A stretch of 64,000 bases of DNA, taken from positions 5,828,001 through 5,892,000 of the forward strand of contig NC_060116.1 in NCBI RefSeq assembly GCF_021155765.1, read 5' to 3'. Origin of the DNA: Diprion similis (taxonomy: Eukaryota; Arthropoda; Insecta; Hymenoptera; Diprionidae). The position numbers were made by a program, and so were the translations under genes. The notes beneath the pieces were generated by a model. That model worked only from the letters and a program-made list of their open reading frames with translations, was not told the origin of the DNA and ran no database searches. Numbering within the stretch: position 1 is the stretch's first letter; every line of letters starts with the position of its first letter. This document shows, in pieces, positions 1 through 53,400 of this stretch.

Positions 1-147
1 TGGTCAACAATGCTCCGTACTTTACGTGTATCGAATAATGTTGAGTTTCGTTAACAGCTTCAAGTATCTTCATCAAATCATCTTCGTGGTACTTTAAAAA
101 GTATTTCTCAAGCATTTTAACTGCTTACAGAGTTATTTCAAATCCCA

Positions 148-516
148 ATGGAAACAAATGAATCAACGATGAATCGAGGCAGAGCAAATAGGATTGGATT
201 TAATTCGGTCAACTTCAGTCGGGATCCGCAAGAGGCGCGGGAAACCAAACGCACGAACTTCAGATCGAAGCGATCGCGAAAAATTGACGATCGATGCAGT
301 GTGAAGACGGTCGAAGAACGCGTTTGTTTGGAAAAAAGTTGCTGTCTAGATTGTTTCATGTCTCTCATTTCTCTCTCTACCGGCTCTAATTCGAGTTCTG
401 ACGAAGAACAATCGTCAACACTCGCGATTCTTCGAGATATATCTGTGATTGACTATCAGACGGGAAACAAGAAACAAGAATTGCTCGAAGAGTTCGAGAA
501 GGCAGGCGGCGTGTGA
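148..516 (+). CDS. Uncertain ORF, 122 aa, unknown product
   Basis: An ATG-started open frame of 122 codons, with no family I recognise. The product is polar, basic in its first half (about residues 1-60) and serine/acid-rich in the middle, with a small cysteine cluster (CC..C) near residue 66. An acceptor-like ttacag ends at 130 just upstream, and in-frame TAA lies at 118-120. After the TGA at 514-516 the +1 frame stays open to a donor-like AG|gtatgc at 547/548, then continues in phase through an acceptor-like tttacag at 953 to a TAA at 1072. Further splice-like sites occur at 1082 (donor) and 1140 (acceptor), and AATAAA lies at 1615. Together these suggest a plus-strand spliced transcript, but the coding frame is not settled. 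It may be a partial gene cut by the window start, a noncoding RNA, or chance. Confidence 0.28.
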   Translation: METNESTMNRGRANRIGFNSVNFSRDPQEARETKRTNFRSKRSRKIDDRCSVKTVEERVCLEKSCCLDCFMSLISLSTGSNSSSDEEQSSTLAILRDISVIDYQTGNKKQELLEEFEKAGGV

Positions 517-652
517 AAACGTGGACTCTGCTGATTTTTACAACAAGGTATGCATTATTCGCAACATTCTTAAGAGGTTTTACTTTGTGCTTTATGTCGA
601 TGAAATATGGCTTCGGATGTATGTACGTATTTTTTGTTCATGTGGAATTTAC

Positions 653-870
653 ATCAGGCTGAAATTTGTAACGTTATTATTTTGACGATGTATCTTTGGA
701 AAAAGTCGTGATTTTGTCACTTACAAGCAACAAACTTACAACAAACCGTTAATACAACGTCGAAAAACTCAGATTTTGTTAATTCAACTTTTTCGGGTAT
801 TCTAAAGGTGAAAAATAAGATTTTTTGTTTCAACGGTTCCATAAGTTAACGTTACTAACTTCAGCCTCGT
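653..870. mobile_element. hAT-type MITE, copy 1
   Basis: The element begins ATCAGGCTGAAA and ends CTTCAGCCTCGT, so the termini are inverted repeats of about 22 bp ending in a TAACGTTA block. It is flanked by a perfect 8-bp direct repeat GAATTTAC at 645-652 and 871-878, the target-site length of hAT transposons. It has no coding capacity. Related copies lie at 11622-11846 and 26275-26480. Confidence 0.8.
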
Positions 871-1379
871 GAATTTACTGACTTGTCCAAAAACCTCATG
901 TCTTTATGTTGCTTTCATGGATGACTTTTTAATAGATTTTAAAATATTTACAGACCAATGGTCTTGCTGTGTTCAGTTACAACAAGATGCAAAACGAATG
1001 TTTCTGTGCTGTATTATACGATTCCGTGGAAAAGTTAGCAAGGATCAGCAGAGGTTACAATCCATCGCATGAAGTTTAATTGGTGAGTTTCTTGATTTGA
1101 ATTTTTTTTTTATCTATGTGTCGTTTCCTTTTTCTCTGCAGTGGGGTAGACGATTAACCAACATATGTCAGAATATTCAAGAAAAATATTCTCAACAGCC
1201 TTTATTCGTATTTACGAAATTACAATGTGGATATTGTGTGAATATTAAAGGAAGAGGAAAATGAATTTGAATTTATTACATATGAATAACGATGAATCCT
1301 AATGCGTGATTGCTGCAGCTTACTTAATTTATCTTGAAAAATAATTTTCAATTTGTGGTATTTCAACTAGCCATAATCC

Positions 1380-1434
1380 GCCTGAGCGTAGGCAAGCGTT
1401 TCACAAATGTACTTACGGTTGCCTGAACACAGGC
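1380..1434. repeat. Pair of GCCT-N6-AGGC mini-hairpins
   Basis: Two 14-bp hairpin motifs, GCCT-gagcgt-AGGC at 1380-1393 and GCCT-gaacac-AGGC at 1421-1434, lie 41 bp apart. The same motif recurs three times at 13699-13801 with 44-45 bp spacing. Function is unknown. Confidence 0.6.
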
Positions 1435-1853
1435 GATTCAAAACTGGCCCTGTGTTGCAAATTATGCTAGAACAATCAGAGTTGAAGTTCAGAGTCGTCC
1501 ATGTATCTGATTTTTATCTCTCTTATAATTTTTACGGATGATTCTTGAATTTTTCTATCTTGAATTATACAATCTTTACACAAGGGTAAACGTTCATAGC
1601 CTTGAATGAGATTGGAATAAAGCTAATTCTGGTACTCAGATACCCAAACATAATAGCAATCCATCGCTTGCGTGTAAAATAGCGTCATGTGATTTAATGT
1701 AACGCTTACACGTGAATACAATAATTTTCCCATATACGTGGACATGCATACCTGAACCATTATGTATGCAGCACAAAAGAGTAGTTTAATAAAATTGAAC
1801 CATTGCGAAGTCACCTGTAAACACACATCATTGCTCTCGATTGAGCGATGAAA

Positions 1854-2744
1854 TCAGGGTGCGGTAACGACGCATTCGCAGCAGAAGTTGACTGCCCGTT
1901 CTTCCCAGACCCATAACTCCCTCGGTTCGTCAGACGAGCTGGAATCGTCGATATTCGTCGGCGTCGAAGCGACGTTCAGAGACGGTGAGGGAATGCAGAC
2001 TCCGGTGTAGCGACGCAACATTTTCACTGTAAAAGACTTTGGCTTGCAGGTGTAAAAACCGTACCAGCAGTTGGTCTTCTCGCACTCTAAGATTCGCAAA
2101 AATCTTGGAAAATAATCGTTTCCCAGGTCGATCCATTCAACCTTAGCGTTGCATTGCCACGGTGTATTTTTTTTCACATGTCTGATTTCCCGGTTTCTAT
2201 CTTCCGACATGTTTTCCTCTGTATTCGGGTTGCTTGCAGGTAACTCCTCTTCGTATTTTATGTTCGAAAACTCGAAATCCCAAGCCGGGGCGTTACTGTA
2301 CACGGAATTGTACTCTTCGTCGACATAAAACGACGGTATTTTATCTGGAATCATGAATATTCACAAATCAAATTTCCAAGATCATCGAAGAGAAAACGGT
2401 CAAAGTCGAATCGTTAGTTGTGTGCGAAATTATGTCGGGGCCTTACTTATCTTTCGTTTCACGACTCCGGAAACTGTTGGCTCCGACTGAACGCTTTCTC
2501 TGGGATCAATGATGGACATGTACCTCGCATTGAACGCCGGCCCCAGAACGGTGCTCAGGATGGCCTCCGGGATGGTACGACATTGTTCGGGACCTTTAAC
2601 GTCTGCACTTAGTCCGACGTCAGTATCTCCGCTGTTATTCGAAAACTGGATTCCATCGCGTTTGATCGATGCTCCGAATACGGCAAAGCGCGTGTGATGC
2701 AAACACAACAAAAGCACCAACACAATGTCCAGCCTCAAGCCCAT
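1854..2744 (-). CDS. trk: Trunk, secreted cystine-knot ligand of Torso
   Basis: Two coding exons, 2447-2744 and 1854-2344, joined in phase (donor gtaagg, acceptor gattccag), give 262 aa. Residues 1-25 form a signal peptide with a leucine-rich core. An N-terminal block at residues 67-77 reads LGPAFNARYMS, a hallmark I associate with Trunk rather than PTTH. Residues 161-262 form the C-terminal domain with eight cysteines, the block WIDLGNDYFPRFLR, and ELWVWEERAVNFCCEC just before the stop. A KK pair at about residue 158 could be a processing site. In Drosophila, Trunk activates the Torso receptor tyrosine kinase at the egg poles. I chose the ATG at 2744 because upstream only a TTG extends the frame and the signal peptide follows at once. 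The next gene on this strand is tsg, 1.4 kb upstream. Function is assigned by family only. Confidence 0.92.
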
Positions 2745-2756
2745 CGTACTTGGCAA

Positions 2757-4173
2757 TAATCTATCGTCCGATTCTCAATTCAACTGTTTACTGGCAAGTT
2801 TCCTTCACCGCGTGTCCTCGGAGCACAATGTTTGCTTATCTATCTCCGGTTTCTTACAACCTACTTCGACACAGATTATTAGATGTTCACAGACTGCGTG
2901 ACGTTTGTCGTTTGGCAGGTACTCGTTGATTGTTCTGAGCTCAAAGGTTCGCGACTTATTTAGACCTGGATTTTTTGCCCCTTCTTCCCTCATTCTATCT
3001 ATGGTTTCAAGGTAAGAGGGAGAGGGTACGAGGGATTATTTCGACGGTTGTACAAAGTCGTAAAAGGTTTTCTAATAACTTTCCGTACTGCACCTGTATT
3101 AAACTTAGGTATCAACCCATGTACACCCAAGTTATTGTTGGAAATTAGGATTAGACAGTGATGTAGCGGGAAAAAGGTTTTCATTCCTCTGCTGTCCGTC
3201 AATTATTCTTATAATGACACATGACAACGATAGAGGATAATTGATAATTTATAGAGTAATGAAGACGGTGGTTTTCTTTTTTGTTTTTAATTTTTATTAT
3301 TTTTCTTATTTTAAAATAATATTTATACATTTATAATTAAGAATATGAATCTATATTTTTTTTTTTTTTTTTACCATCGTAAACGTCTGCATTCTGGACG
3401 TCTTTGTTAAGCGTTGTAGCATAGATACAGATAAATGTGCGAATACTTTGTTAGTATAACCGTAGGTGTATACATATAATATCGTTCTACGTGTACACGG
3501 TTTGGAAAAAAATTTTGGTAATTTCAGGTACCGCTCTATAAATAAACCTTACGAAGGGATAATATTATAATATTTGTTTATTAAAGTAGCGTGATGGATA
3601 AATTACTAGTTTAGAAGTATAACGAAACGTGCGTGTATTGTTAATAATTTGAGATACACATGTTACTAAATCGTTAAAATGCTTGAAAACTATCAATTAA
3701 CTCTACGCAGTGTATGATTATAACCAGACAATTGTATTCACATATATTATATCTATACATATACACAGTGATTTATACGTGTGAAACAATATTATTCGTA
3801 TAAAACGTTCGAGAAGAAGGTGAAGAAAAACACGCGAGCGCGTCAAAGTCGTTGTTTTTTTCTCGTAAAATTAAAAATATATCACAATTTCGAAACGAAC
3901 GATTTTCAGATATGGTACAATTATTGATGCACTATCGTCTTAACGATATATAAAATTAATTATCAAGGAACCTCGAGGGATGCGCCGCGTGTACCTCGGA
4001 CGCGATAATTATGATAAAAATTTTCTTCAATTCTACGAAATCCGAGTAGGTGTAAAATTAGAATCCGTCAAATTTCTAGGTCTAACTAATATTTTCTAGT
4101 CCAGAGACCCTCGAGGCTATATCATCAGGTCGTTAGTGAAGCGCGAACCTTTCCGGCTGCGGTATTAATATTC
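2757..4173. other. trunk 5' flank and tsg 3' flank, no gene seen
   Basis: AT-rich sequence between trunk and tsg. It should hold the trunk promoter and the tsg 3' UTR. Minus-strand AATAAA signals occur in the T-rich 3290-3310 stretch and at about 3577. I see no further coding sequence. Confidence 0.5.
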
Positions 4174-5197
4174 CTAATCCCGAATCTCCTCCAAAAGATA
4201 ATCCTCCAAGTTATCCTGGTCGTCGTCGTCATCCCCCTGCCCGTAGTCGTCGTACTCGTCATCCGCCACCCGATTAACCGTAGGACAAAGCCTGCACCGG
4301 GACTCGTTTATGCCGTAGTTTATACAGGTGTCGCCTACGCATTCGCAGCATCCGTCGTGAAACCACCTGTAGCTGGCTGCTCCCATGCTCTGGCACGTTG
4401 TCTGGCACTTGTTCCAGGAGTTGCATCGCGCTATGAAGGCAACCGTGCAATTCAGCGTCACGATTCTCGCGTTTCGAGGACCGGAGACGGTGCCCCGGTG
4501 CCTGGAGTCTTCGCCTGGATATGGAAAAGAGAATAAGAGAGAGAGAGAGAGAGAGAGAGAAGAAGAGCGAGAATTGGAATTAGAAGATTAGCCTAAAATT
4601 AAGTAAATAACGAGAACTATACGTAAATAATGCAGAGTTGACATAGTAAAAGACAGGGGGAAGGAGGGGGGGGGGGGGGGGGGGGGAGGGATAAGGCAGG
4701 AAGTGGATCTCGCTTACCGATGTGATACATAAACTCGGGCCTTGAGTCGAAGAGCGAGGCGTCAAAGTCGACCGGGAAGCTGAAGCTCGTCCACCTCTCC
4801 TGAGGATCGGGGTCCATGGTCAGAGCCTGGAAGAGTCCTGGAACCGGTTCGTCCAGTTCCTCGATGTGGGACTTTGCGCCGAGGGGATTCCGTGCCGTCG
4901 CGTTCGGCTTTGGACAGAGATCTTTCGGGGAAATAAGGGGACGGTTTTTCGTTCCATGAATGGAAGGTTGAAGGTATCCTTCGACTTACCGACGCACGAA
5001 CAGCACTCGTCGTAGAGGTAGCTCAGGCAGAAAAAGCACTCCTTGCAGCAGCTGCAAGTCTTCAAGTCGCACTTGCAGCTCTCAGTCAATAAACACTTGC
5101 TAACTATGCTGCCGCAAACCGCCTGGTTACAGGCACTTGTGGCTGCTACTAATGACACCAGCAAAACTGTCAAACGCGCAATAAATTCACGCGACAT
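4174..5197 (-). CDS. tsg: Twisted gastrulation, secreted BMP-binding protein
   Basis: Three exons, 4990-5197, 4718-4921 and 4174-4514, all joined in phase 1, give 250 aa. A signal peptide covers about residues 1-22. The N-terminal domain (residues 23-72) is dense in cysteine, with [19 protein letters not shown] and [12 protein letters not shown], and matches the Tsg N domain. The middle exon carries the conserved [16 protein letters not shown] and SFPVDFD blocks. The C-terminal domain (about residues 155-215) has [19 protein letters not shown] and CINYG. Tsg proteins bind BMPs together with Chordin/Sog and shape dorsoventral BMP activity outside the cell. The protein ends in an unusually acidic tail (residues 221-247, mostly D and E) beyond the last conserved cysteine. 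The ATG at 5197 begins the signal peptide directly. It lies in tandem with trunk and spätzle. Confidence 0.95.
4536..4562. repeat. (AG)n microsatellite in tsg intron 2
   Basis: About 13 AG units just 22 bases upstream, in gene orientation, of the tsg exon 3 acceptor at 4515-4516. Confidence 0.9.
4666..4686. repeat. G21 homopolymer in tsg intron 2
   Basis: A run of 21 G on the plus strand, so C on the transcribed sense strand. It begins 31 bases from the exon 2 donor. It could fold as G-quadruplex DNA and is prone to length errors in sequencing. Confidence 0.9.
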
Positions 5198-8100
5198 CTT
5201 TCCTACGCGCAGATTATTCGATTACTGTACTGTACATACCGTATACAAATTATTGTAACTCCCTTCGCTGTAACTTCGCCCACGCTTCTACGTATGGGTA
5301 ATGCACATGCTCTTACTGATACCTTCTTTTTTTTTTCTTTTTTTTTTCCTTTCTTTCTTTCTTTGTATGTATACTATCTCGTGCAGATATTATTACGTAT
5401 ACATGTATCTATATGTACACGTATGTGTGGGTGTTTGTGTCGTTGCGTGTATTATGTGCGCGGGTGTCGCACGCGTGTCTCCTCTTCGACGACAAGTTTT
5501 ACTTCATTGGCTCTGAGTTGATTTGTGTTTGGGTTATTTATACCTTCGCAAGTCATTCTCTTGTTCCTACAGGTAAGGACTGGGTGGGGTACTATCGGAG
5601 GGTGGGGGTGAGGATGAGGGCTCGGACGAGGAACGACCGATTTGTTAGCCTGTTGTATATTCTAATTTGCTGTAATTTCTAGATTTGGTTATACTCGACA
5701 TTCCTTGTTACAAATGGTTTCGCTTTCATATCATTAACGAAAATTATTTATTCGCACGGAGGGGAATAAGGATTGTTGGATCAACAGTGGCTAATTCTTA
5801 ATACTTGATGGGTGGGAAAGGAAATATTTTACTCGAGGAAATTAATTTTTTTCTTCAGCTAATCGAGTATTTTTAAAAATATTTTTATGTTTATTGTGCA
5901 GTAACAAAACAGTTTACATATACCGCAGAATTTCGCACAATTGCGATAATTTGATGTCAGTACGACGGTGAATTGATATTGAGGCCACCTTTTTCAAGTG
6001 AAAGAAATTTAAACAAACAAATTTAATGTTGCACCGACAAAAAAATGCATAAGCATTGAAAACTATAAACGATTTTCACTCAATTAACATAGCTGAGAGC
6101 TTCGGCGTGTAGAAAGAAACTTCTTCTTATTGTTAGATTAAGAAAAAAAAGGTTAATTAATCGATACGTATAGACAATCGTGTACAACACACCGGAATTC
6201 GCGGTAACATTTGCCAATAATCGAAGCATCGCTTGGTATAGAAAAGGCTTGAAAATATACGCCTTGACTTGAAAAATTTGCGCGATCTACATTCGATGCC
6301 TATTTAATAAACATCCAACACATCGACACAATTGTTATACGTACGCGTCGCTTTTCGCGAGCTGTCGAGCCCCTTTTTCTTGGAATACTCGTACCCGGGT
6401 AGTCGAAGGGCAGGCATAGAATTAACCCTCGTAAAACTATCTTCGATGATCCGAGGGATTAAAAGGGTAGCGGAGACAAAGCTCAGGTCAAGGGATAATG
6501 AAGGGTGCGAATAGGTCATCGGTCGCAAGTCTTTTGCGCAGCTGTGCCAATTGCAGGTATGTTGTATCAGAGTTGAAATCCTTGGAAAATGAATATTTGG
6601 AACAGCAAGAGTTGGATTTATTGGTTAATCCGCTTACCGATAGATCAAGGGATCCTGAGCTTTTCTACAGTTGTGCAATACGTTCATAATGCTTTGCCTA
6701 TAATTACTCAACGGATTTTGACAGAGCCTCATTTGTGTGGATTTTAATACACCGGTCGTTGACAGGTGAGGGTCTAATTCATTTCAAATATCGACTCGTC
6801 CTTCATCCGGGATTAGGAATAAACATCGCGCGGTGAGAGAGGCTTTTCGTTTGTCAGGAATTTGAACCTTTGTGTGTACATTGGGTCTTCAAAGGCACGG
6901 TCGAAATTTGAAACTCGAATTTCCTGCTTTCAAAATTATTTTTTACTGATAACGGTTTCGAACGTTTGACTTAGACAGCTTCTGGTCCATAAAGTAAAGA
7001 CTTTGAGAAGTAATCCAGATTTTTTCACATCATTTCAAATCCTAGAAAACTTTGAAAATCGGACTGTTTCTTAAAAGACACAGTGTACACAACGCTTCTC
7101 GGAAAGTATAGTTAGGAACGAACCTTATACTCATTATACTCATACTCAAATCCCACATCAATCTTATACTCATTGTTAATATCCATCATTAATAATAAGA
7201 TCAATTAGCCTTCGATCGTTATGTCGGAAAATTCTGATTCTTCTTAAATCATTTATCACTTATCACGTGGTCGACAGACTTCCACGATTTTTTTTTAACA
7301 CAATCAGTAAGCACGAAGGATTTATCCGTTTTCCCTCTTGGCTAAGTAAAATTGATTCGATCAATTCCGGTGAATTCTCTTTCCTTTGAGGTACTTCGTG
7401 TGCCAAGTACCTGAAAATATATTCAATCTGCACACCAATATTTGGCCATGCCGTTCAGGAATAATTGCAAACAATTCGCTCTCGAGTATCAGGCTATTTG
7501 CAGGATCGCGTGGTAGGCATAATGTGCACAAAAACGTACAGCATCGATGCGGTGGATACATTTTATTACATACGTACATAATTATTTAAATACAATTGCG
7601 ATATTGTACTATGTTTTTCTGTTATAGGCTACGCGCGATATGTAACTAAATATATTTTTGTAAGCTAAAAAAAAGTAGTGTAAGTGAAAGGCGTAAAAAT
7701 CCTTGCAGACGGTCGGACCAGCCAAGCTCATTCGATAAGTTCATTAATTGAATACCCGATACGCGCAGCATTAAGCAGTTCAGGCTAATTACTTGAAATT
7801 GCAATGGTCCTGACAATCTTAAAATCTACCATCATCATCATCGTTATGTTTATGATAATTATTATCACTATATTACCTATCTCTTACATCTATTATTTCT
7901 TCACTATCGTCTGTGCTTGTCGGACTGATTTTCACATTGAAAATTCATCCAATACTTTACGTACGTTGTATAATATAAAGTACAATACGAGTCACATTAT
8001 TTTTTGGTTCATCCAAGCAAAGCGCCCATTAACGATATAATTTGCTCGTTTCACGATCGAGTAAAAACCAAGCAACGCGCTAGTCTCTTCTGTATTCTCC

Positions 8101-8366
8101 AAAGAGCGCATGAAACGATGAATTTTGAATACATCGTCAAGGAACAAACTTTTATCACGTATCGCCGTGTTACTTTCCAACGAACTTCCTTACCAATTAC
8201 CTATAATTTCACCGAGAAATCCTAACTCCGACTTATAATTTATCCTTAGTACGGGTGAAAATCTGCGAAGCCATTATCTTCACGAATGGCTCGTTAATTT
8301 GCTAGTATCGTCCACTGATTATCGACCAGAATTTTTCCACGTCGGTACTGCAGTAGGTAATCGGTT
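5198..8366. other. tsg 5' flank and spätzle 3' flank, no gene seen
   Basis: AT-rich sequence of 3.2 kb with short pyrimidine tracts (5329-5365), GTAT-type repeats (5390-5450) and a degenerate ttatactcat repeat near 7124-7170. Short open frames occur on both strands, but none has a recognisable domain or coding flavour. Confidence 0.5.
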
Positions 8367-10791
8367 TTACGTCGGATTAAACTGGGTCTCGATCCTCATC
8401 CTGGCGTAAGGGGATTCCAATTTTACGTGACAACAGCAACTCGAAGGAAGCTTGAACAAGTCCCGAATCGCCGTGCCGTTTTCACTAATCGCAGCCAGTT
8501 GCCGGTAGATGTATTTCTGCTTGCACATCGTCTTGTATCCGGTCGCGAATCCACCGATTACCGAACATTCTCCCTCGGGCGATCTGGACAATGGTTAAGA
8601 GCCAATGAATCACTGCATCGCGAGCCTTTTCGCCCATCAACAATAGAGAATTGATCATTGCACGCGTCTTAATACTTACCGGCATGTCTCGATCCGAACT
8701 CCCTGTCTAAAGCCTTCCTGGTTCACAATGAACAGCCAATTGTTATCCTTGTTCTGAGCAGCCGTGGGGAAGATGAGCCGCTCCTGGATGATAAATTATA
8801 ATTAGGTTAATTAGCGTGTTCATCGAAAAACTCGGGTACTCATAAGACGCACAATTTGTGGCCAATAGTACCATTTTTGCCTATGTTTTTGCAAAATGCA
8901 GTATTTCTTGAATCGACCTTTCATCTCTTCAATTTATACTCCATTCCTGACCAAATTATTTTGACCGACTTTGACAAAGATTTGGACTGAAAAATTCGAT
9001 ACGCTTTATTTTTAAACCAACCAACTTTGCCATAACTTTTACGTCTACCAGGCGGAGAAAAATTTGACACCTACCGTCGTAACGCAAAGAGCAGTGCTGT
9101 CGTCTCTGTTGAATCTCTCGGCGATATCGTCGACCTGCGAATTATTTTTTTCCAATTACTGCCCGTCTCTTTTACGTGATTAACAGAAAAGGATGAGGAG
9201 GAGGGAGAAATCTCACCATGTCTACTACGGCAAGATACTTGAGATCGTTTTGCCGCTTTATCAAGTTGCTGACGTAGTTCTCTGGGTAGGAATCCGTCTT
9301 CTCGCAGAATGTTTCATCTCTGCATGCAGGATCTGGTCCAGGTTTGAAAGTTTTTAGCACAGGCGACGATTCGTCGTCGGGAAAAACTATATCGCCGGTC
9401 GATGATCCGTCACGTCCTGAAGACAGAGAGATACGTCAGAGGGATCCTTGCACTCTATGCCTACGCTTTTCATGCACTCTATGCTATGGTTTTGAAAAAG
9501 AAGAAAAAACATGGGGAAAGCGATTTACTCACCGGTGTCTCGATTCGTCTCTGCATTTATTTCGCTCAGCAATTGCCAACGGTGTTCTGTTCTCGGAAGG
9601 ACGTATTCGTCGTGCTTGTCGAAGGACCTGGACACTGTCGCCGAAGGCATCGATACGCTCATTTCGAAGAGCTGAAACAGCAAGTTTTGTACGTAAGGAT
9701 AGATGCACTTTTCTCGGCTGTTTTTTGATAGGAAAAATGATGCCCAAAATTCCGAGTATTTAGTATTTGAGTAAAACTTGTTATCCTCGATAACGAGGTG
9801 AAGCTAACGTCAAATCGACGCGTCGCGACGTTGAAATTGGGATATTATAGAAATGCTTGGAGAGAAAGAGGGAGAACTGAGAAGAAAGATATTCAGGCGA
9901 GCTTGAAATATATTCGTGTGAAAGGCGAACGGCGAACAGTTATGGGAATTACTCGAATGCCAGATAGCATCAGCAATCGCCAAGGCCACAGCCGAGGGTA
10001 AACAGTTCGTAACTATATTTATATTTGGAGTTAATGGTCAAAGATGGTCCCGTAAAGGCGCTATCGGAACCTCCGAATTCGTTAAATTCCGCGTGATAAT
10101 AAATATCGATAGAACGTCACCAAACACCGAGAAAAGAGTTTATTTATTATTTACAAACGTATATTTAGATGTGGAGAAATAAATGTTTTTTTATTATCAT
10201 CAAGTTTTAACTGCGGGCCAAGTAATGACCGATAGAACTCTGTTAATATGGTTAATACGTCACGATTTTGGTTCAACTACACAAATTTGATAATGATGAT
10301 GAAACTTTGCCTTCGCCATATACAAATATACGTTTGTTATCAGTAAATAAACTCTTTTTTTAGTTTAGAGAAATGTTTATCATTTTCCTCTCGGTTTGCA
10401 CACAGCAGCTTGTATTGATATTTCCAATTATTCCAACGTTCCGAGTGACGCCGAGAGAATCTCGCCTTGTTTGCTTCGCTTCTACGTCAACGATTCTGCA
10501 ACCTGTACCTAGAACCCCGTTGCAGAAGGTGGCAACCATCGTTACGTAATGTAATGACTCGTAAACACGTCATTTAAAGTACACGGAGATAAACTTTGGG
10601 CAAAAAACATTCCGTTTAAGACAAGTCTGAGAGAGGCGAAATGTCGGTTAACCCTGACTATTAGAAAAACCACTCACCACGGTGGTGAAAATTAATCCGA
10701 CTGTAACCAGGTTACGAGGCAGTTGATCAAGCGGCGAAATCCGCCTGCCGGGGGATTCCCGTCGACTGACGGTTCTGCTCGTTAACGTCAT
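8367..10791 (-). CDS. spz: Spätzle, cystine-knot ligand of Toll
   Basis: Six exons give 277 aa: 10678-10791, 9533-9671, 9217-9416, 9075-9134, 8680-8783 and 8367-8583. All splice sites are GT-AG and phases agree. The knot domain spans about residues 160-260, with seven cysteines at 168, 205, 212, 226 and 255-257, the Spätzle number. Diagnostic blocks are ERLIFPTAAQNKDNNW, FRQGVRIETC, CKQKYIYRQL and LFKLPSSCCC. The prodomain has a second paired-cysteine region with YPENYVSNLI (residues 128-137). In the family, a serine protease cleaves the proprotein and the dimer activates Toll in dorsoventral patterning or immunity. Exon 1 is inferred. It supplies the only in-frame ATG (10791), with an in-frame TGA 18 bases upstream. 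Its hydrophobic stretch (residues 27-39) continues across the junction into exon 2. Which of the several insect spz paralogues this is remains open; classical spz fits best. Confidence 0.9.
10751..10760. promoter_or_regulatory. kappaB-like motif GGGGATTCCC in spz exon 1
   Basis: This palindrome-like decamer fits the NF-kappaB/Dorsal consensus GGGRNNYYCC exactly. It lies inside the first coding exon of spätzle, the ligand of the pathway that ends in Dorsal/Dif/Relish. One short site can arise by chance, so a regulatory role is only an inference. Confidence 0.3.
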
Positions 10792-11621
10792 CGCACTAGC
10801 GCGGTTTCAGCTAGCGATTCGCTTATTCGCGAGTTAGATCAGCGCGCCACTTCGTCTGAATGGTAAATAAAATCACAATGAATCGGGAATTAAACCTTGC
10901 TAATTTGTGGCAGCTTCACTGACTGGTCACTGACTTCCGGTAAATAAATAATTATACCGCAGAGGTATTTTCACAGCGAGGAGACGCGGCCGGTATCGTT
11001 CCTCTAACAGGTTGCACTTGATTAAACCGGCGGCAACCTTCTTTCGTGTATTTATGACCAGTCGGGTTACTCGCCAATACCGCTGAGAGGAAGGGGAAAG
11101 GGGTTGAGTCGCAAGTGGGGCGAAGGGATTGGGACAATTGGCAAGTGCACGATGCGTTTAGGCCGTTGCAGACCTGTAGGGGAAAGGTCGTTGGAAAAGG
11201 TTAGTACAATGGTAAAATGTCTACCGAATGCTGAGTCGTTGATAGAAGCGATGACATGCCTCAGATTTCTTGAGATTTAAGATTGTGCCTACCGATGCGA
11301 ATTCAGGAGCAACATCGACGTACGACAATTTAGGTTCGACTAAAATTTAGTCAGCCATTAAAAAGATGGGCTAATATTTTGTAAATTTAACTGATCTTTG
11401 TAGTCACTTTGCGTAGTCGTGATTTTATTTTTTATGAATTTTACAATAAGATATAGTCGTATCTTGAGTATTTATCAAGTAATTATATTCGTGAGTTGTT
11501 TGTATCTCTATAAAACTTATAAAAATAGAATATACGGGAATTAGTAACAAAAGATTAGACATTGATGTTTCGTTTCAAATCGCTTTTAAAGGTTAATGAT
11601 CAAAGGTTCAATCTGTAATGA

Positions 11622-11846
11622 ATGAGGCTGAAATTAGTAACTTTATTGTAATGATTTACTTACGGAAAAACCGTTATTTCAAAATTGTAGGGATGTAGGA
11701 AATGCAGCGAGCCATAATTATGAAAAACTTATTTATATTTCGAAGACTTAACTTACTTACTTCAAAGTAAGAATATTTACAAATTTGCAAAATATTAATT
11801 TTCCCCCAATATTTCGTTACCTTAAGGTTACCAACTTTAGCCTCAT
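11622..11846. mobile_element. hAT-type MITE, copy 2
   Basis: Ends ATGAGGCTGAAATTAGTAAC and (inverted) GTTACCAACTTTAGCCTCAT match the termini of the copies at 653-870 and 26275-26480. The flanking octamers TGTAATGA and TATACCGA agree at only about five positions, consistent with an old insertion. It is noncoding. Confidence 0.7.
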
Positions 11847-11958
11847 TATACCGACTCATTTTGTCGGAACAATTATTTTCTACAAAGTAATTTAAACAGA
11901 TTTTTGTTTTAACTCCCCCCCATATTGATATGTCAAGTTTCTTTTCCCCGTGTAGTTA

Positions 11959-12076
11959 GCAGGTGAATGCAGCATGCTCTGATTCTTTTCAAATTCACCA
12001 AAATCACCATTTCGCGAGGTCTCAGGCTTGGTGATTTTGGTGAATTGACCAATCAGAGCATGCTGCATCCACCTGC
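11959..12076. mobile_element. 118-bp near-perfect hairpin, probable MITE
   Basis: Arms of about 50 bp pair with one another, beginning GCAGGTGAATGCAGCATGC on the left and ending GCATGCTGCATCCACCTGC on the right, with a loop of about 19 bp. The only mismatches are one base near the tip and a small bulge near the middle. TA lies immediately outside both ends, as for a mariner-type target. It could also be a hairpin RNA source. Confidence 0.65.
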
Positions 12077-23100: not shown

Positions 23101-26100
23101 ATCGGAAGTCGAAAGTCTATTCATGGCTTCACAGATTGATGCAGCCAATGAATTTCTCGGACCGCGGCAAATCGCTGTATTACAATGAACCAATTGCTGT
23201 AATTGATACGACTACAAAACTCCAAGAAAGCAAACATCCGCACTGCGTTTATCCAAGTTGATTAATGTCTGGTAAATTGAACGTGAGAAGCTAATGAATT
23301 ATTAATTCGCGGAAGGAAACTGGCTCTCAATATTCAAATACAAACGGATCCACACTTCCAAGTTTAACGACAAAAGTAAGAGGACAAGGAAAAAGAAGAA
23401 GAAGAAGAAGAAGAAGAAGAGTGTCTCCCTTCTCAAGTCCTCGAGCCTTTCACAATCTCGTCGGGTTCAATGTCCGGGGCGACCCGCGATCCTCGTCGGT
23501 CAGGTGTGTAAACCGAGAATCAAGCGACCAGCCGACGGATTTCAAGAATGCTACGTGCACGCGGACACGTTCTTTGATTGTAGTACAAGATTGTGCAGGT
23601 ATAAGGAACGGAATTTATACCCACGGGAAGAGAAGCTTCGTCGTCACCGGCGAGGCAGGCCGACTTTGACCGTGAAACTTTTTTCATTCGAAGGCACTGC
23701 TAGGTAGGTCAGATTCTTAATCGCTGTACAGTTAGGTTAGAAATGTGAATGCGATGAGAGGAATTGAGATAGGACATTAAGGGGATTAAATTGCTGTTTA
23801 GCTAAAGATCGATGATGATTTTGATAGATTTCAGTACGAGGTAGTCGTGCATCCAGCATCCGGTACTTGTAAAATTATTATTGTATATACGTAAGCTACG
23901 AAGATCTTTTTGAAGATACAAAAATAGAAAGTACTGGTGTTATTTATAAACGAAAGCTTAGATATATCGATGATTCGTTTTAAATCGTTTCAGAATTTTT
24001 AAGAATCTAGTAGATTTTTAACCATTATAAAGCAATTTGGAAGAAAGCATCGGTACCTAAGCCTACGTTCCTAGTTCCAATATTATATATTTTGTATTTT
24101 TTTATTTTTAGAAGGATGTGCGTAGCTTACAAATATCATAATTTCATAAGTGTTGATTGTTTAGCTATCTCATAATAGAATTTACAAGAAGTATCGAAAT
24201 TTTGTCAACTAACCTAACTTAACATCACGCAACAAATCAAATTAAACGTACACTTGAAGTTTTTACGACAAGCTCTATTTAAGAGAAGAAATTAGCTACG
24301 GAAATTTGGTTTGCGCACATCGAATTTAAAATCTAGGACACCGAATAATGCGTCCTGTTGATTAGTCGAAAAGTAGAATCGGTTTAGAGAAGTTTGGGTT
24401 TTGTGTCTCAAGAATCGCTGACGTAATTTTCTGTGCATTCTAACGCGGACCAAAAAGGGTCTCGTGATGTCAGACTCGCAATCAGCATTCGAGCCTTCGG
24501 CGTCTGAGAGCCCTGAAGCTGGACTTACAAAGAGACAGAGAAGGTCGGGACGTAATATCGAGAATTAATTTAGGTCACCGCGCGTGAATTCTGAATTGAA
24601 AACAGTCGCTTGGAGACACGGGAAAAAAGAGTTGAGAAGCCCGAATTAAAAAGAAAAGAAAAAAGCTCCGGTGGTTGAGTAGAGAGATAATTCCATACAT
24701 TTCTTCTTTTATCGAAAACAAAATCATATGAACCATATTAAAATCCATTAATTTTTTTTTATCGATCTTGTTCGTTGGTAAAAAAAAAAAATATCTGTTA
24801 AGTAAGATCGTCATAGGTTACAAATGACAAACACATGGCTTATCAAAACGTACATTATCCTTATCTAAATGCTATTCCATTTAGAAACAGAATACACTAA
24901 AGTTCCGAATATTATCTGAACGATATGCTTTTGATTTATGTCAGAAAAAGTTACTCGTGATCCAGCTTCTTAATTAATTGTACTTAATTTTGTTCAACTT
25001 AAGGGAACATCGGACGAACCAAACTTGAATTGATTCTCTCAACTTTCGTCTCCTTGTTTTTTCTTTTTTTGGTAATATTTCGACTGGGCATTAAACACCG
25101 CAAAAAATATTCGGTGCGGACTTTGATAGTTCATAATTTGGTGCCAATCTAATACTGCTGATTCTTAACAGTACGGTAGTCCACACCGACTAATTTTCGT
25201 CCATTTCAATATCGAAATTATCATTTTTTCCACAGTACGCAGGTAATACACATTATTCAAAAAAATTACCTGCAAGTGGTGGCATTTTCTCCGACTGCTC
25301 CTGTTCCTGCGCTAGCTCGTTGCTGTTCGCGTTCGAGTGCGGACGAAGGTTTGGTACGGCGACGAGGGCGAGAGAAAGCAGAAGAACCATCAGACAAGTG
25401 GCAGGCTGTGCACTTTTGTTGCTGTTCTGTATGAGGGTTTGCAGCCTCTTTAGCTGCCCGGCGAGACTCTGGTTTTGGCTCTGGAGGGCCTTGATGCGTT
25501 TAAGGAGAGTCATGTTTTCCTCGGTGCACTGCTTGACGCGGTCCTCGAGGCCGTCGACGTACTCCTTTTTCCTCTTGCGGGAGTCTTGGGCGGATATCTT
25601 GTTGCGTATCTTGCGTCTGATCCTCTTGAGTTCGCGCTCCTCGTGTTTGGTAAGCGGATAGTGAGTAGGCAGAGTGATTCCCTCCTTCTGGAGCAACCGC
25701 TTTTCCTCACTGTTCAGCTTCAGCCGAGGGTACGGTGACGTTTCCGGTTCCGAACTCACTTCGTCGCTCGATATTCCACCCTTTTCGCTACCGGAATCGT
25801 CCTGCTTGATGCTCACCTGTTTCGGAAGTGGCGGTCATTTGATGGATACTTTTTTTTTCTACCACGTAGAAGGGAAAGAAAGAGGAGTTACAAGGGCTGC
25901 GGAAGCTTACCGACAATGGTTTGCTGATCACGTTGCCCTGGTTGATCTTGAAGCCTTTAAGATTCCTCGCCTGCGTCGCGTTTATGATTTTTATCGTCCG
26001 GACTTCCTTCATGTCCTTTAGGCTTACCGGAAGGAGAATCGAACGCGGATTTCCCGAGCCGACCGGTGTTACCCGGATCAATTGTCTAATGTTATTACGT

Positions 26101-29100
26101 TTGTTACTCTGAAGATTGCGCAGATTGATCGTCGCTTCCGGTGGAATTTCTGGCTGGTGTTGTGTCACGACGTCTGGAACAGTTAGAAATCAGGTCATTC
26201 GTAGCTTTGTATACTGCATTGAATTATCGAAGTATTTGACAGTGAGGATCGATGGATCAGCTTGTTCTAAATCAACGAGGCTGAAGTTAGTAACGTTAAT
26301 GTATCGAAAAAAAAATTACTGAAGCATTTACTGCACCTTGAATAAATTGAATGTACAAAAATCTGAGCTTTTGATGCTGTACTAACAGTTTACTAAAATT
26401 TAAGTCATCTTAAAGCAGCAAAAATAACGACGTTTTACAAAGATGCGTCATTACAATAAAGTTACAAAATTCAACCTGATCTAAATCATCGATTCGAGTT
26501 TCGCGTTCAAGGCTAAAATCCAGTTTCTCTCTTTCTTCGATTTTTTTGAAGATTCTCGGATCGAATTTAAAAAAAAATTCGACCCAGAAATCCCTTGGAA
26601 ATATGTTTAAAAAATTGTCGACTCAACCATGCTGAGTATTTGGTAATCGCGAAGAATATAGACCGCAGCTCGATAATGAGGTCAGAGTACCTACATGTGA
26701 AATTGGCTGAAGATAGTGGTTGTATAACATACGTATATGCCACTAAAGCGAAACAAGGCGCGTCACGTAATATCACGCACAGAGAATTCCTACACAAGAA
26801 GTGTATTTTACCTTAATCAAGTTAATTTACCCTAGAAAACGATGGGAAAACTTAGGACTTAGGAATTCATATACATAATAGCAAAGTTGCGTTCACACCC
26901 TTTACACGAAACATCTTCGAACTGCAGATAATATTCTTTATTTTATCAATTTTCACGTTTTCTTTTGGTGTACCACGTTACTGAGGACAGTAACAACTTA
27001 ACGATATCATTTGTATACGAGTCTTGCAAGCTCAGACTTCAAAGAGATATCTTTGACTTTTCTAACACGAAGAACCCTTTCCAATCCTGGTTTTCGCAAT
27101 TCCCGCGTCACCCTTTGTAACAACACTTGTAGGTACTCACTAAAATTGAGGGTCTGTTGCTGTTGCTGGACGACGACGGCCTCCTGGGATTGTCCGTCGG
27201 CGATGTTGTTGGGCTCGACGACGTTCACGAGGGTTTGTTCAAAGTCCATTTCCTCCGTGGCATCCGTCCCAGGTGATCCGAGGTTCGAGCTCATCACCGA
27301 TCTGATCGGGCTGTCGATCGGACTTTCGGGGCTTGATTCAAGGGATTGATTCGGGCTCTCAATTGGGTCGAATTCGACGAAATCCCGAGGGCTGTTCAAG
27401 TCGGAGTTGAATTCTATCTGCTCTTCCTCGATCGGCAGTAGCGGGCTCAGCTGCTGTTCGCACGAGCTTAAAGCACTCGAGAGTCCGCTGTCCGACGAGG
27501 AGGACGGAATTGCAACCAGGTCGCTGTCTATCAGATCGAACTGGTTGTCCAGCTTGAATATCGAGTCCAGGAAATCGTCCGGATTCGTCGGCCATTCTTC
27601 CGTCTGAAATACGAAAAATTTTCTTTGATTTAAAAGTAAATAAAACGACACAAGTATGTATCTTGCAGATTTCAGCAGCTGTCCAGCTAAGAATTTCACG
27701 ATTTTCTGCCGATTTAGCTGATTATTCAAGTCAAAATTTTCGTCGCAATTTGAGAATGAAAATTACTCAGTTTTTTAGGGTCAACTATGTGCAATCTACG
27801 AATCTAGTTTCTTCGTTTCGTTTTTTCTACACGAGAAAAAAAAATAAAAAAATTTCCGCGTTTTAGATCGTAACAGTTGTGAACAACAATGAAGCAAGTT
27901 TGTTTAAAAAATGCTAATGAGTAACGAAATTCAATACGAGGTTAATGAAATGACAGTTTTTCGACTTCGGAATAATTTTAAAGAAGCTGGATTTGAGAAA
28001 TGTGAGTTTAGATAAGGTTTACAAAATTCGAGACCACTAAATTTTTTAAATGAAAAGTTTTCCTTAAAATTCACGCTCGTAATAAGTTGACAACTTGATT
28101 TGTTAACCGGAAAAATCGTTGAAGGCTTTCCCGAATCGGAATACAATATTTTTTTCAGCAAGTGTAAATAAATTGTTTGAAAAATAAAAACAGGCCGTTC
28201 AAGTCGAATTGAATTTGCCATGTTTGTTGGATTGCACGCAAGAATAATTATTCGCAATCAATAAAACGACCATTATCTGCTAGGGTGTGATTTACTGAAA
28301 AGACAGACAGCCGGCGCCACGATTCGCGACAGTGAAAAACGTGCGAGGGTGTGATTGACATCGATTTATTGACGCGCGTTCAGGGATGCGGAAGGACGAT
28401 AAGAAGCTCGTTTCTCTGCCCCAATTGAGAAAGGTGGATCGATTTTCCATTCGGCTATCCTTTCTCATCAGTGTAACCAGTCAATTGTTAAATAAATTCT
28501 ATTACATCACGCGCTGCGCTTGTACGCCATGATTTCCCGTATAACAATAAATCGTCCTAAGCCCGTTAAATCTTATTTAAAATATTGAAAAAAAAACAAT
28601 AAAAATATAATACGAGATAACACATAGAATTTTGTCTGAAAACTGCAGTGAGATCTTTTTACGTAATATAATTATATGTGTTTTTTCTTGCAGGACATAC
28701 GCGGTAGAAAATATCTTCAGAAAGCTGACAATCACGGCGAAAAAAGGTGGAAAGAAAAGTTATCAGAGTGTGGCAGAATCGTACTAAGGTACATAATTTT
28801 TTATTCGTTTTCTTTTAGGTCAGTTATTTTGCAGATTTCTCCCGTTTCCTGTCTCTCTTTATTCTTCACTCTCTCCCTCTCTTTCTCTCTCTCTTCGCCG
28901 CGTACCTATTATATTCCTCTCTTTTTGGAATAGTTGTACAGGCACCGCATGGTAACGGGTGAAATTACTTATGGCATAGTGGTTTTACTGTTCTATGGTT
29001 GTTACAGTGTTACAAACTTCGTAGTGTAAGAATATAAGTAGTGAGCTCGTACAGATAATTGCACCCTTTGTTCAGTACAGTCAAAATTTGCATAGAAATT

Positions 29101-50431: not shown

Positions 50432-53400
50432 CTATTGCTTGCGGGTAAAGTGAATCTTGATTCCATCTTGTGGCCTTAGAATGAAATCATTATAGCACTT
50501 CGCCTCCTCATATTTCAGAGCGCTCTTGACTTTCCACTCTCTTAATATCGCAGTTAATACAATCTTTTGTTCCAAGAGAGAGAACTTTTGTCCAATACAG
50601 TTTCTCGGTCCGGCACTGAAGGGTATGTACGCGTATGGATGTCGCCCTTGAGAATTCTCCGGTAAAAATCTGTCCGGATCGAATTTATCCGGATTCGGCC
50701 AATGGTTCGGATGCCGGTGAACGTAGTGTATCAAAATGGAAGCGAGGGATCCCTTAAGCACTTTGTATCCAGCTGTTCGAAAAGATTTTTGTGAAAAAAG
50801 GTCACGTGTCGTATAAGTACTTGTCGTGGTGAATATTGGTAATCGTCGAGGCGTCATCGGCCAATTGACTCACCAATTTCCGTGTCTTCGGTTATCTTTC
50901 GACTCACCGACGGCACGGCAGGAAATAGTCTCAATGTTTCCTTAATCACCCTTTCAAGGTATCTGAGTTCGTTAATTTGTTGAAGCGTGGCTGGTTCCTT
51001 CGAGTCACCGAAGATGCGGAAATGCTCCTCGTGGATTTTCTCTTGGACTTCCGGATTATTCCCGATACAGAACAAGGCCCAACCCATAGTTGCAGCCGAC
51101 GTATCGTGACCCTGGAGAAAATTCGGAAATTCGAAAATTGCATCACTTTAGCGATGAAACTAAACATTCCACTCGTGTTATCGAAAATAAAGTTCATTAT
51201 CGTTTGTCGTACTTACTGCAAATAGAAACGTGTCAACCTCCTGTCGTAACTCGTCGTCAGTGAGAGGCATCTTTTCACGCTCGCACGCATCTAACAAGTG
51301 ATCTAAAAATGCCTGTCTTTTTGGTTTCTCTGTGCAAAGGAAAGCGTTATTTATTTCAGTCGTGTAATCCACGCAACGAAGGGAAATATTTTTCTTGTTC
51401 TATGACCAGATATACCAAACATCCCTTATCGTAATTATTAATTTGAAACATATAAGACAAAGTTTTTCTCATTCATCTTACCGAATTTGTAGTTTTCATC
51501 GGGATTATTTTGACGAGGGATTTTCTGGGCCATCTTCTTTTCACTTATTACCTACAAATGCAGATAAAACAATTCACGGGTGTTTCGTAAACGGTCGGAG
51601 CGAATGTTGTTTCACTCTTACCTTATTTGTAAATTTGTGTGCCGTTTCGACAAGATGCTGGAATTCTTTTCCACGCTGAGTTTGATAGTATAACCAGTCA
51701 TTGTGTAGCCAAGGTCGGAAAAGCCGTTCTATAGCATGGCTGCTAATTCTACGAATGAAATAGATTTTAGTAAAATACGTAGGATGCATTTATAACTATA
51801 GATCCATCAATCAATTTCTTCTTCTGACCGAGTGAAAGTTTTTCACCGTCAAGTCAAGTCTCGGTCTCTTTGTTCCACTTTCATTTTTACTAAGTACGAC
51901 TAAGGCTTGTAATAAGTTATGACTTTTTATCTGTTTTGATATTTTTCCCGTATGTTAAGTCGACTTTTTTCAACAATATTTTATACGGCACATTATGCAA
52001 TTACAATTTCATATGCCCATTATGATGCGATGTATTTCTGTTTGAAATTCATACCGTTCTATAGCTGTGGAATATGCCAAATTTTCGTCTTTTTTAACAT
52101 TGATGTTGACCCCCATTGCTGCTTCTAGAGTTAATAAGAGAATTTGAAAGAAATTATATATTTTAAGACGAAATTGCTAAACGAATAGATTACTATATCA
52201 AAGTCCAATCTCGCAAGTGTCATTTCACGAGTTTGAATACCAACACCCTAAGTATTTAGTATTATATCTCACCACAGATTATATCCAGTGCACATTTTGT
52301 TACAAAAACATACATATCGATCGGTTCTTCTGGATTCCTTTTTAGCTCTGTCTCGATGCATTTTTTCAAAACTTCCGCCTTCTCAAACATCACCACTGAA
52401 TATTCCTCCAATATATTGAAATGAAACGTTGGGGTGATCAATTTTCTGTGCTGATGCCACGTTTCCCCTGCGTAAGAAGTATAAAAACCTTTCATTACTG
52501 TGAACCATCGTTAATGACGAACATCAAATCTGTGCAAAATTGATAGCGGAATTTCATTATTGATTCGATGTAATAAACTAATTTTTAGTTATCTAAATAA
52601 TTTCACTCACCTGTAGAAGTTATCAGTCCTGTACCCAGCCACGGTTGAATGAAACTGTAAATTTCTGATTTCGTAATGAGCGTCTTGCTGCGCAAAATCA
52701 CCTAATTTACACAGAGAATAACAAAATCGCAGAATATCATTACCTTCCAGTGTCAGACAACGGGATGACTTATTCATGAGATTGAGGTATATTACTCACG
52801 CTGACAGTTTCTGGCGAAATAAAATAAACGTTGGCTGTAGTTCCAAACCAAATGCGAAATACTCCTTCCACATGATACCGCCCGCACAGATCACGTGACA
52901 GTTTCAAGCGATCTGTAAGCGTTATTTACACAAAGTAGAGGAGTAGATGTGCAGTGTGTGGCCAATCGTGTAAAGCGTTTCAATTCTATTTGGTACTAGA
53001 AATCTGTTCAGTCATTGATCCAAAGAATATCTTCTGCAGTAAGCATTAATGCAGCTTTTGACTACTCGATAGTTTGCAAATCAAATCTTACAAAGTCGAT
53101 CCAATACAGCTTTTTGCCATTTGTGGCCAGGCATTTCTTTGACATGCAATGAATTAGCCAAAAATTGCACGATTACCCTAATTTTCAAGGGAAATCACTA
53201 ATTACAAAACTGCCGTTTTGTTTTCTGCGTGTTATTCTTTTATTTAGGTTATTCAGTGACATATGAGGCATTCCATACCAAACCTACCTACGTCTCAGCC
53301 TCACTATCGGCGATTTTATCTATTTTTTAGTATAATGTAGAGTGTAAAAAAATAAATATCATCTTTCGCTGAGTTTCACACTTTTTGAACCACGTGTTTG

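Follow-up and report, generated by a model that had tools for sequence, protein, structure and literature searches.

The locus described here raised the question of whether three neighbouring genes, a trunk-type gene, twisted gastrulation (tsg) and spätzle (spz), are held together by shared control or merely happen to adjoin. In Drosophila, the Trunk, Tsg and Spätzle proteins are extracellular factors of early pattern formation. The genes lie in a window of 64,000 nucleotides, the whole stretch of DNA that was analysed, which corresponds to C12:5828001-5892000 (contig C12) of a 269 Mb genome of 60 contigs. From the analyses taken together, it was concluded that the adjacency is probably a neutral neighbourhood of three independent, ordinary genes, which became linked by inheritance or by chance and are under no common control.

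The gene models were assembled from exon frames and splice sites and are predictions from sequence only. Three spliced genes with open frames were obtained, all on the minus strand between window positions 1854 and 10791, and all eight of the modelled introns started with GT and ended with AG. The window Tsg protein had a hydrophobic N-terminus and scored 171.9 bits against Pfam Tsg and 82.6 bits against Tsg_N (cut-off 25 each), and its nearest solved structure was TWSG1 (8bwa, E value 5.9e-45). In both respects, the two domains over the cut-off and the match to TWSG1, it resembled the Twisted gastrulation/Crossveinless family. The window Spz protein scored 109.3 bits against Pfam Spaetzle (cut-off 27), and the nearest solved structure was Spätzle 3e07 (E 1.4e-16). 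The trunk-type protein matched Pfam Noggin with 29.8 bits, above the cut-off of 24.1. An earlier note on this DNA had described the three genes as a tandem trio on one strand, and this arrangement was borne out by the gene models, the Pfam matches and the matches to solved structures. As for the names that it gave, those of tsg and spz were supported, and that of trunk was supported as a Trunk-type gene, which is more probably Trunk than PTTH. The coordinates are collected in the table.

Table. Predicted coding exons of the three genes and the gaps between them (window positions)
Feature	Position	Strand	Length	Details
trunk-type gene	1854..2744	-	262 amino acids	2 coding exons: 2744-2447, 2344-1854
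tsg (tsg/crossveinless type)	4174..5197	-	250 amino acids	3 coding exons: 5197-4990, 4921-4718, 4514-4174
spz	8367..10791	-	277 amino acids	6 coding exons: 10791-10678, 9671-9533, 9416-9217, 9134-9075, 8783-8680, 8583-8367
tsg stop to trunk-type start gap	2745..4173		1429 bases	AATAAA (minus strand): 3582, 3298
spz stop to tsg start gap	5198..8366		3169 bases	AATAAA (minus strand): 7567, 6622, 5895, 5752

Shared regulation, which had been put forward as one explanation of the cluster, found no clear sign: there was no marked motif excess, polyadenylation signals followed each gene and the exon layouts of the three genes differed. The signals were present in both gaps, though AT-rich DNA would be expected to contain some of them anyway. 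No further gene was recognised in the gaps when the list of open reading frames was read by eye, the frames of the gaps not having been scanned against families. Motifs were counted between window positions 1000 and 12000 against an expectation by length, using Drosophila consensus sites, which make a weak test here. On these terms Zelda-, Dorsal- and Twist-like sites were not markedly enriched. The Zelda-like counts were 0 for CAGGTAG (0.17 expected), 2 for CAGGTAR (2.06), 0 for TAGGTAG (1.03) and 5 for YAGGTAR (4.1). Both forms of the Dorsal-like site were absent (0.34 and 1.03 expected), and the Twist-like CACATG was found 5 times against 3.6 expected.

Several points weigh against a neutral neighbourhood. 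The shorter CAGGTA was counted 7 times, somewhat above the expected 4.1, and the intron of trunk shared a 25-base direct repeat, 80% alike, with one of the exons of tsg; both were taken as chance. The scans for Drosophila motifs count only weakly against shared control, and the neutrality of the adjacency is itself an argument from absence. Further, the number of runs of three patterning genes expected per genome was 0.006 if 100 of 13,000 genes are counted as patterning genes and 0.16 if 300 are, figures that rest on an assumed gene number and assumed set sizes; the low expectation under the narrow gene set weighs against neutrality. The adjacency of the trio is thus unusual, but it was picked after the fact and is therefore not proof of constraint.

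A rival reading is conserved ancestral microsynteny, in which the three genes would have been neighbours in an early insect, held by shared cis-regulation such as maternal or early-embryo enhancers, and would have been broken up in flies. The tight spacing on one strand fits such a history, as does the extracellular role of all three proteins in early patterning of Drosophila, but no marked motif enrichment accompanied them, the paralogues elsewhere in the genome were unclustered and no report of the trio was found in the literature. This history was judged unlikely. Conserved animal microsynteny blocks also consist of unrelated adjoining genes on one strand; the adjacency of the trio is known here from one genome. 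The earlier note had known of no description of the trio as a cluster, and none was found in the open-licence literature either, where candidate papers were judged by their titles and the opening lines of their abstracts. Relatives of trunk, tsg and spz were absent from viral contigs (IMG/VR), and relatives of tsg from prokaryote contigs (GTDB) and from plasmids.

If the three genes act as their families do, each would work independently of its neighbours. The Trunk-type pro-protein would be cut at an RxxR site before its cystine knot and would then activate the receptor kinase Torso; Tsg would bind BMP and tune its spread; and pro-Spätzle would be cut at a candidate RFNR site before the knot and would activate Toll. 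The adjacency itself would have no function.

It was also considered whether the trio arose by tandem duplication of a cystine-knot gene, and this was rejected. The three genes fall in three Pfam families, namely Noggin, Tsg/Tsg_N and Spaetzle, and no significant match was found between the Trunk-type and Spz proteins, the best (E 0.12) lying outside the knot; hence no recent local duplication stands behind the trio. The common fold of Trunk and Spätzle, to which the earlier note had pointed, is a distant connection at best; their knots do not match here, and a duplication reading of the fold gained no support. A likeness of Trunk and Spätzle has long been known, and a title of 1995 in the reference list of PMC6777369 already concerns it. 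The paralogues are placed apart in the genome: the second tsg on contig C3, a canonical noggin on C6 and the remaining Spaetzle matches on C2, C5, C8 and another part of C12. No second cluster of this kind was seen; C3, which carries the second tsg, had neither a Spaetzle nor a Noggin match in the genome-wide searches. A weak match of a PTTH fragment on C3 (E 0.124), 1.46 Mb from the second tsg, was read as chance. Repeats in window positions 1-12000 were few and poor, comprising three direct families and three inverted pairs of 25-76 bases, and short two-copy families are often chance according to the repeat-finding tool itself. The longest arms, of 76 bases and 76% complementary, belonged to an imperfect inverted repeat at 10132-10358, inside the first intron of the spz model.

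An assembly artefact joining unrelated loci was held to be very improbable, nothing in the one assembly examined speaking for it. The window contained no N bases, and C12 was 17.8 Mb long with a telomere array at one end; TTAGG arrays of this kind were found on contig ends. The tandem repeats listed for window positions 1-12000 were short, namely an AG tract (4536-4572) within an intron of tsg and, in the gap that separates tsg from spz, a T-rich tract (5324-5364). Separately, the same satellite-like repeat was seen to fill C12:1-4000 and C6:1-4000, in each case at the end opposite the telomere.

The identity of the first gene decides whether the trio consists of three axis-patterning genes at all. 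The trunk-type protein began with a hydrophobic N-terminus (LDIVLVLLLCLH), followed by a pro-region and an RxxR at residue 151, directly before a C-terminal knot of eight cysteines. By the pattern of its family, it is a putative secreted pro-protein with a candidate cleavage site at the RxxR. These features, together with the Pfam Noggin match, liken it to the Trunk/PTTH/Noggin-like Torso ligands. A structure predicted for it without an alignment had a mean pLDDT of 37.5, too low to serve as a model.

If the gene were PTTH, the moulting hormone, rather than Trunk, the three would not all be axis-patterning genes, an identity that is compatible with the other readings of the locus. Among solved structures compared by sequence, PTTH 5aoq was the nearest to the protein, though weakly so (E 0.0078), whereas Noggin 1m4u was not significant (E 0.47), and the protein was 36% identical to a PTTH fragment over an alignment of 59 columns. 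A genome search with a 56-residue PTTH fragment revealed no separate PTTH: up to E 10 it gave three matches, of which the window gene was the best (E 0.08), and the two others, tried as PTTH elsewhere in the genome, looked chance-like when their frames were read. On the other side, the knot of the trunk-type protein starts with a single cysteine and W-x-DLG, which is the Noggin pattern, in place of the C-x-C and I-E-DLG of the PTTH; this residue comparison took in one PTTH fragment and two noggins. The CWYG and NARYMSI stretches of the protein presumably resemble Trunk. The knot-start residues and these stretches would favour Trunk over PTTH. A further point in favour of PTTH lies in its reported presence in Nasonia and solitary bees, together with the reports that Trunk was undetected in bees and is missing from several Hymenoptera (PMC8887954 and PMC6777369). 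With both sides considered, the PTTH identity was regarded as improbable.

The second exon of the trunk-type gene, searched against its own genome, matched solely itself, and the protein matched the noggin of the same genome with E 2e-4. The exon was absent from the three matches of the genome-wide Noggin-family search; such searches can therefore overlook members of the family, PTTH included. A canonical noggin was found at C6:6984343-6987161, its two exons scoring 136 and 33.9 bits against Pfam Noggin. A weak Noggin match on C5 was rejected as chance-like after its frame was read. No torso-like (MACPF) match was found genome-wide by an exon-by-exon search, which can miss genes.

These findings bear on what has been published for other insects. 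According to PMC9071555, nog and nog-like genes are known in other arthropods and were not found in holometabolous insects, and PMC4218986 states that no noggin was found in Nasonia. The window gene differs from the known Torso ligands in its setting, as it lies in a probably hymenopteran genome, and in Hymenoptera trunk is described in PMC6777369 as missing from multiple genomes, implying an early loss. If the genome is hymenopteran and the gene is truly Trunk, the published loss of trunk must fall within Hymenoptera. It is conceivable, though improbable, that this hymenopteran keeps a genuine trunk as well as a canonical noggin, contrary to the published view, and that the block of trunk, tsg and spz goes back to a linkage in ancestral insects which disappeared along with trunk in the bees and chalcid wasps.

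By its gene content the genome is probably that of an insect, and several features bear on whether it is hymenopteran, as it appears to be. A part of Orco was 70.9% identical to the 6c70 chain of the fig wasp Apocrypta bakeri and 57.0% identical to that of Drosophila bipectinata, each compared over 323 positions; the references themselves were 58.6% alike. The chain labelled ApisOrco, taken to be that of the pea aphid, was the lowest-scoring against Orco, with 301 bits; were it of the honeybee, the score would speak against Hymenoptera. The observed/expected ratio of CpG in the window was 1.38. The hymenopteran sex-determination family SDP_N was not found in the genome by a search that lacked a positive control. 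The mitochondrial contig (C45:4001-24000) was 84% AT, and one of its frames recurred after about 16.1 kb. With the genes named by reading, the mitochondrial order appeared rearranged, nad2 and its neighbouring tRNAs looking inverted and some tRNAs swapped. In PMC4754708, ten sawfly mitochondrial genomes are described as showing no rearrangement of protein genes, and the inverted nad2 is unlike theirs. The Orco identities, the CpG ratio and the rearranged mitochondrial order favour Hymenoptera; the missing SDP_N and the difference from the sawflies in nad2 speak, if anything, against it.

The genome held two clear copies of tsg, that of the window and one with open frames at C3:1507822-1508336, and a third, weak Tsg match on C8 (E 0.194). 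The C3 copy was 64% identical to the window copy over 229 residues; the first intron stood at the same place in both, and exon 2 was 204 bases long in each. Because the two copies scored nearly alike against TWSG1 (157 and 158 bits), the window gene may be a one-to-one orthologue of Drosophila tsg or may instead correspond to crossveinless or shrew. Three tsg/cv genes are reported for Nasonia in PMC4218986, as against the two clear copies here, and the duplication of tsg is in itself not new.

The Spaetzle family was larger. The knot of the window spz was encoded by its last three exons, with the candidate site RFNR just upstream of it, and its first exon is a prediction without homology support. 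An exon-by-exon Pfam search gave 13 exon matches at eight places in the genome, the strongest exon match to the Pfam model being at a C2 place and not in the window. With the exons joined, the score against the Drosophila Spätzle domain was 179 for the window gene and 134, 127, 88, 80, 72, 61 and 44 for the other seven places, those with 80 and 44 being compared over half of the domain only. One of these half-domain places had an identity of 20/55 over its half, above the 32/98 of the window gene. By score, then, the window spz appears to be the closest of the eight places to the Drosophila Toll ligand, and no notable difference from Spätzle was seen. Another gene of the family, at C12:14545109-14545282 and 8.7 Mb away, was 48% identical to the window spz over 58 residues. 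Trypsin matches that stayed under the Pfam cut-off were noticed on C12 at a distance of about 19 kb from the trunk-type gene; by their motifs, these pieces look like a clip-domain serine protease homologue that has lost its catalytic residues. Clip-domain serine protease homologues act upstream of Spätzle.

Other genes were seen in the window. At 25253-25834, a bZIP domain (62.8 bits) with a hydrophobic stretch behind it was read as CREB3-like, and 27007-27762 may be the N-terminal part of that CREB3-like bZIP gene. The C-terminal part of a cytochrome P450 lay at 50432-50869.

The cluster as such matters only if it is conserved, in which case ligands of the terminal, dorsoventral and immune systems would share a single regulatory neighbourhood. 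That this lineage has a trunk-type gene and noggin may matter more than the adjacency of the trio. If the first gene is Trunk and the genome hymenopteran, the loss of trunk would move inside Hymenoptera, and the species would allow one to study whether Torso has kept its role at the ends of the embryo there.

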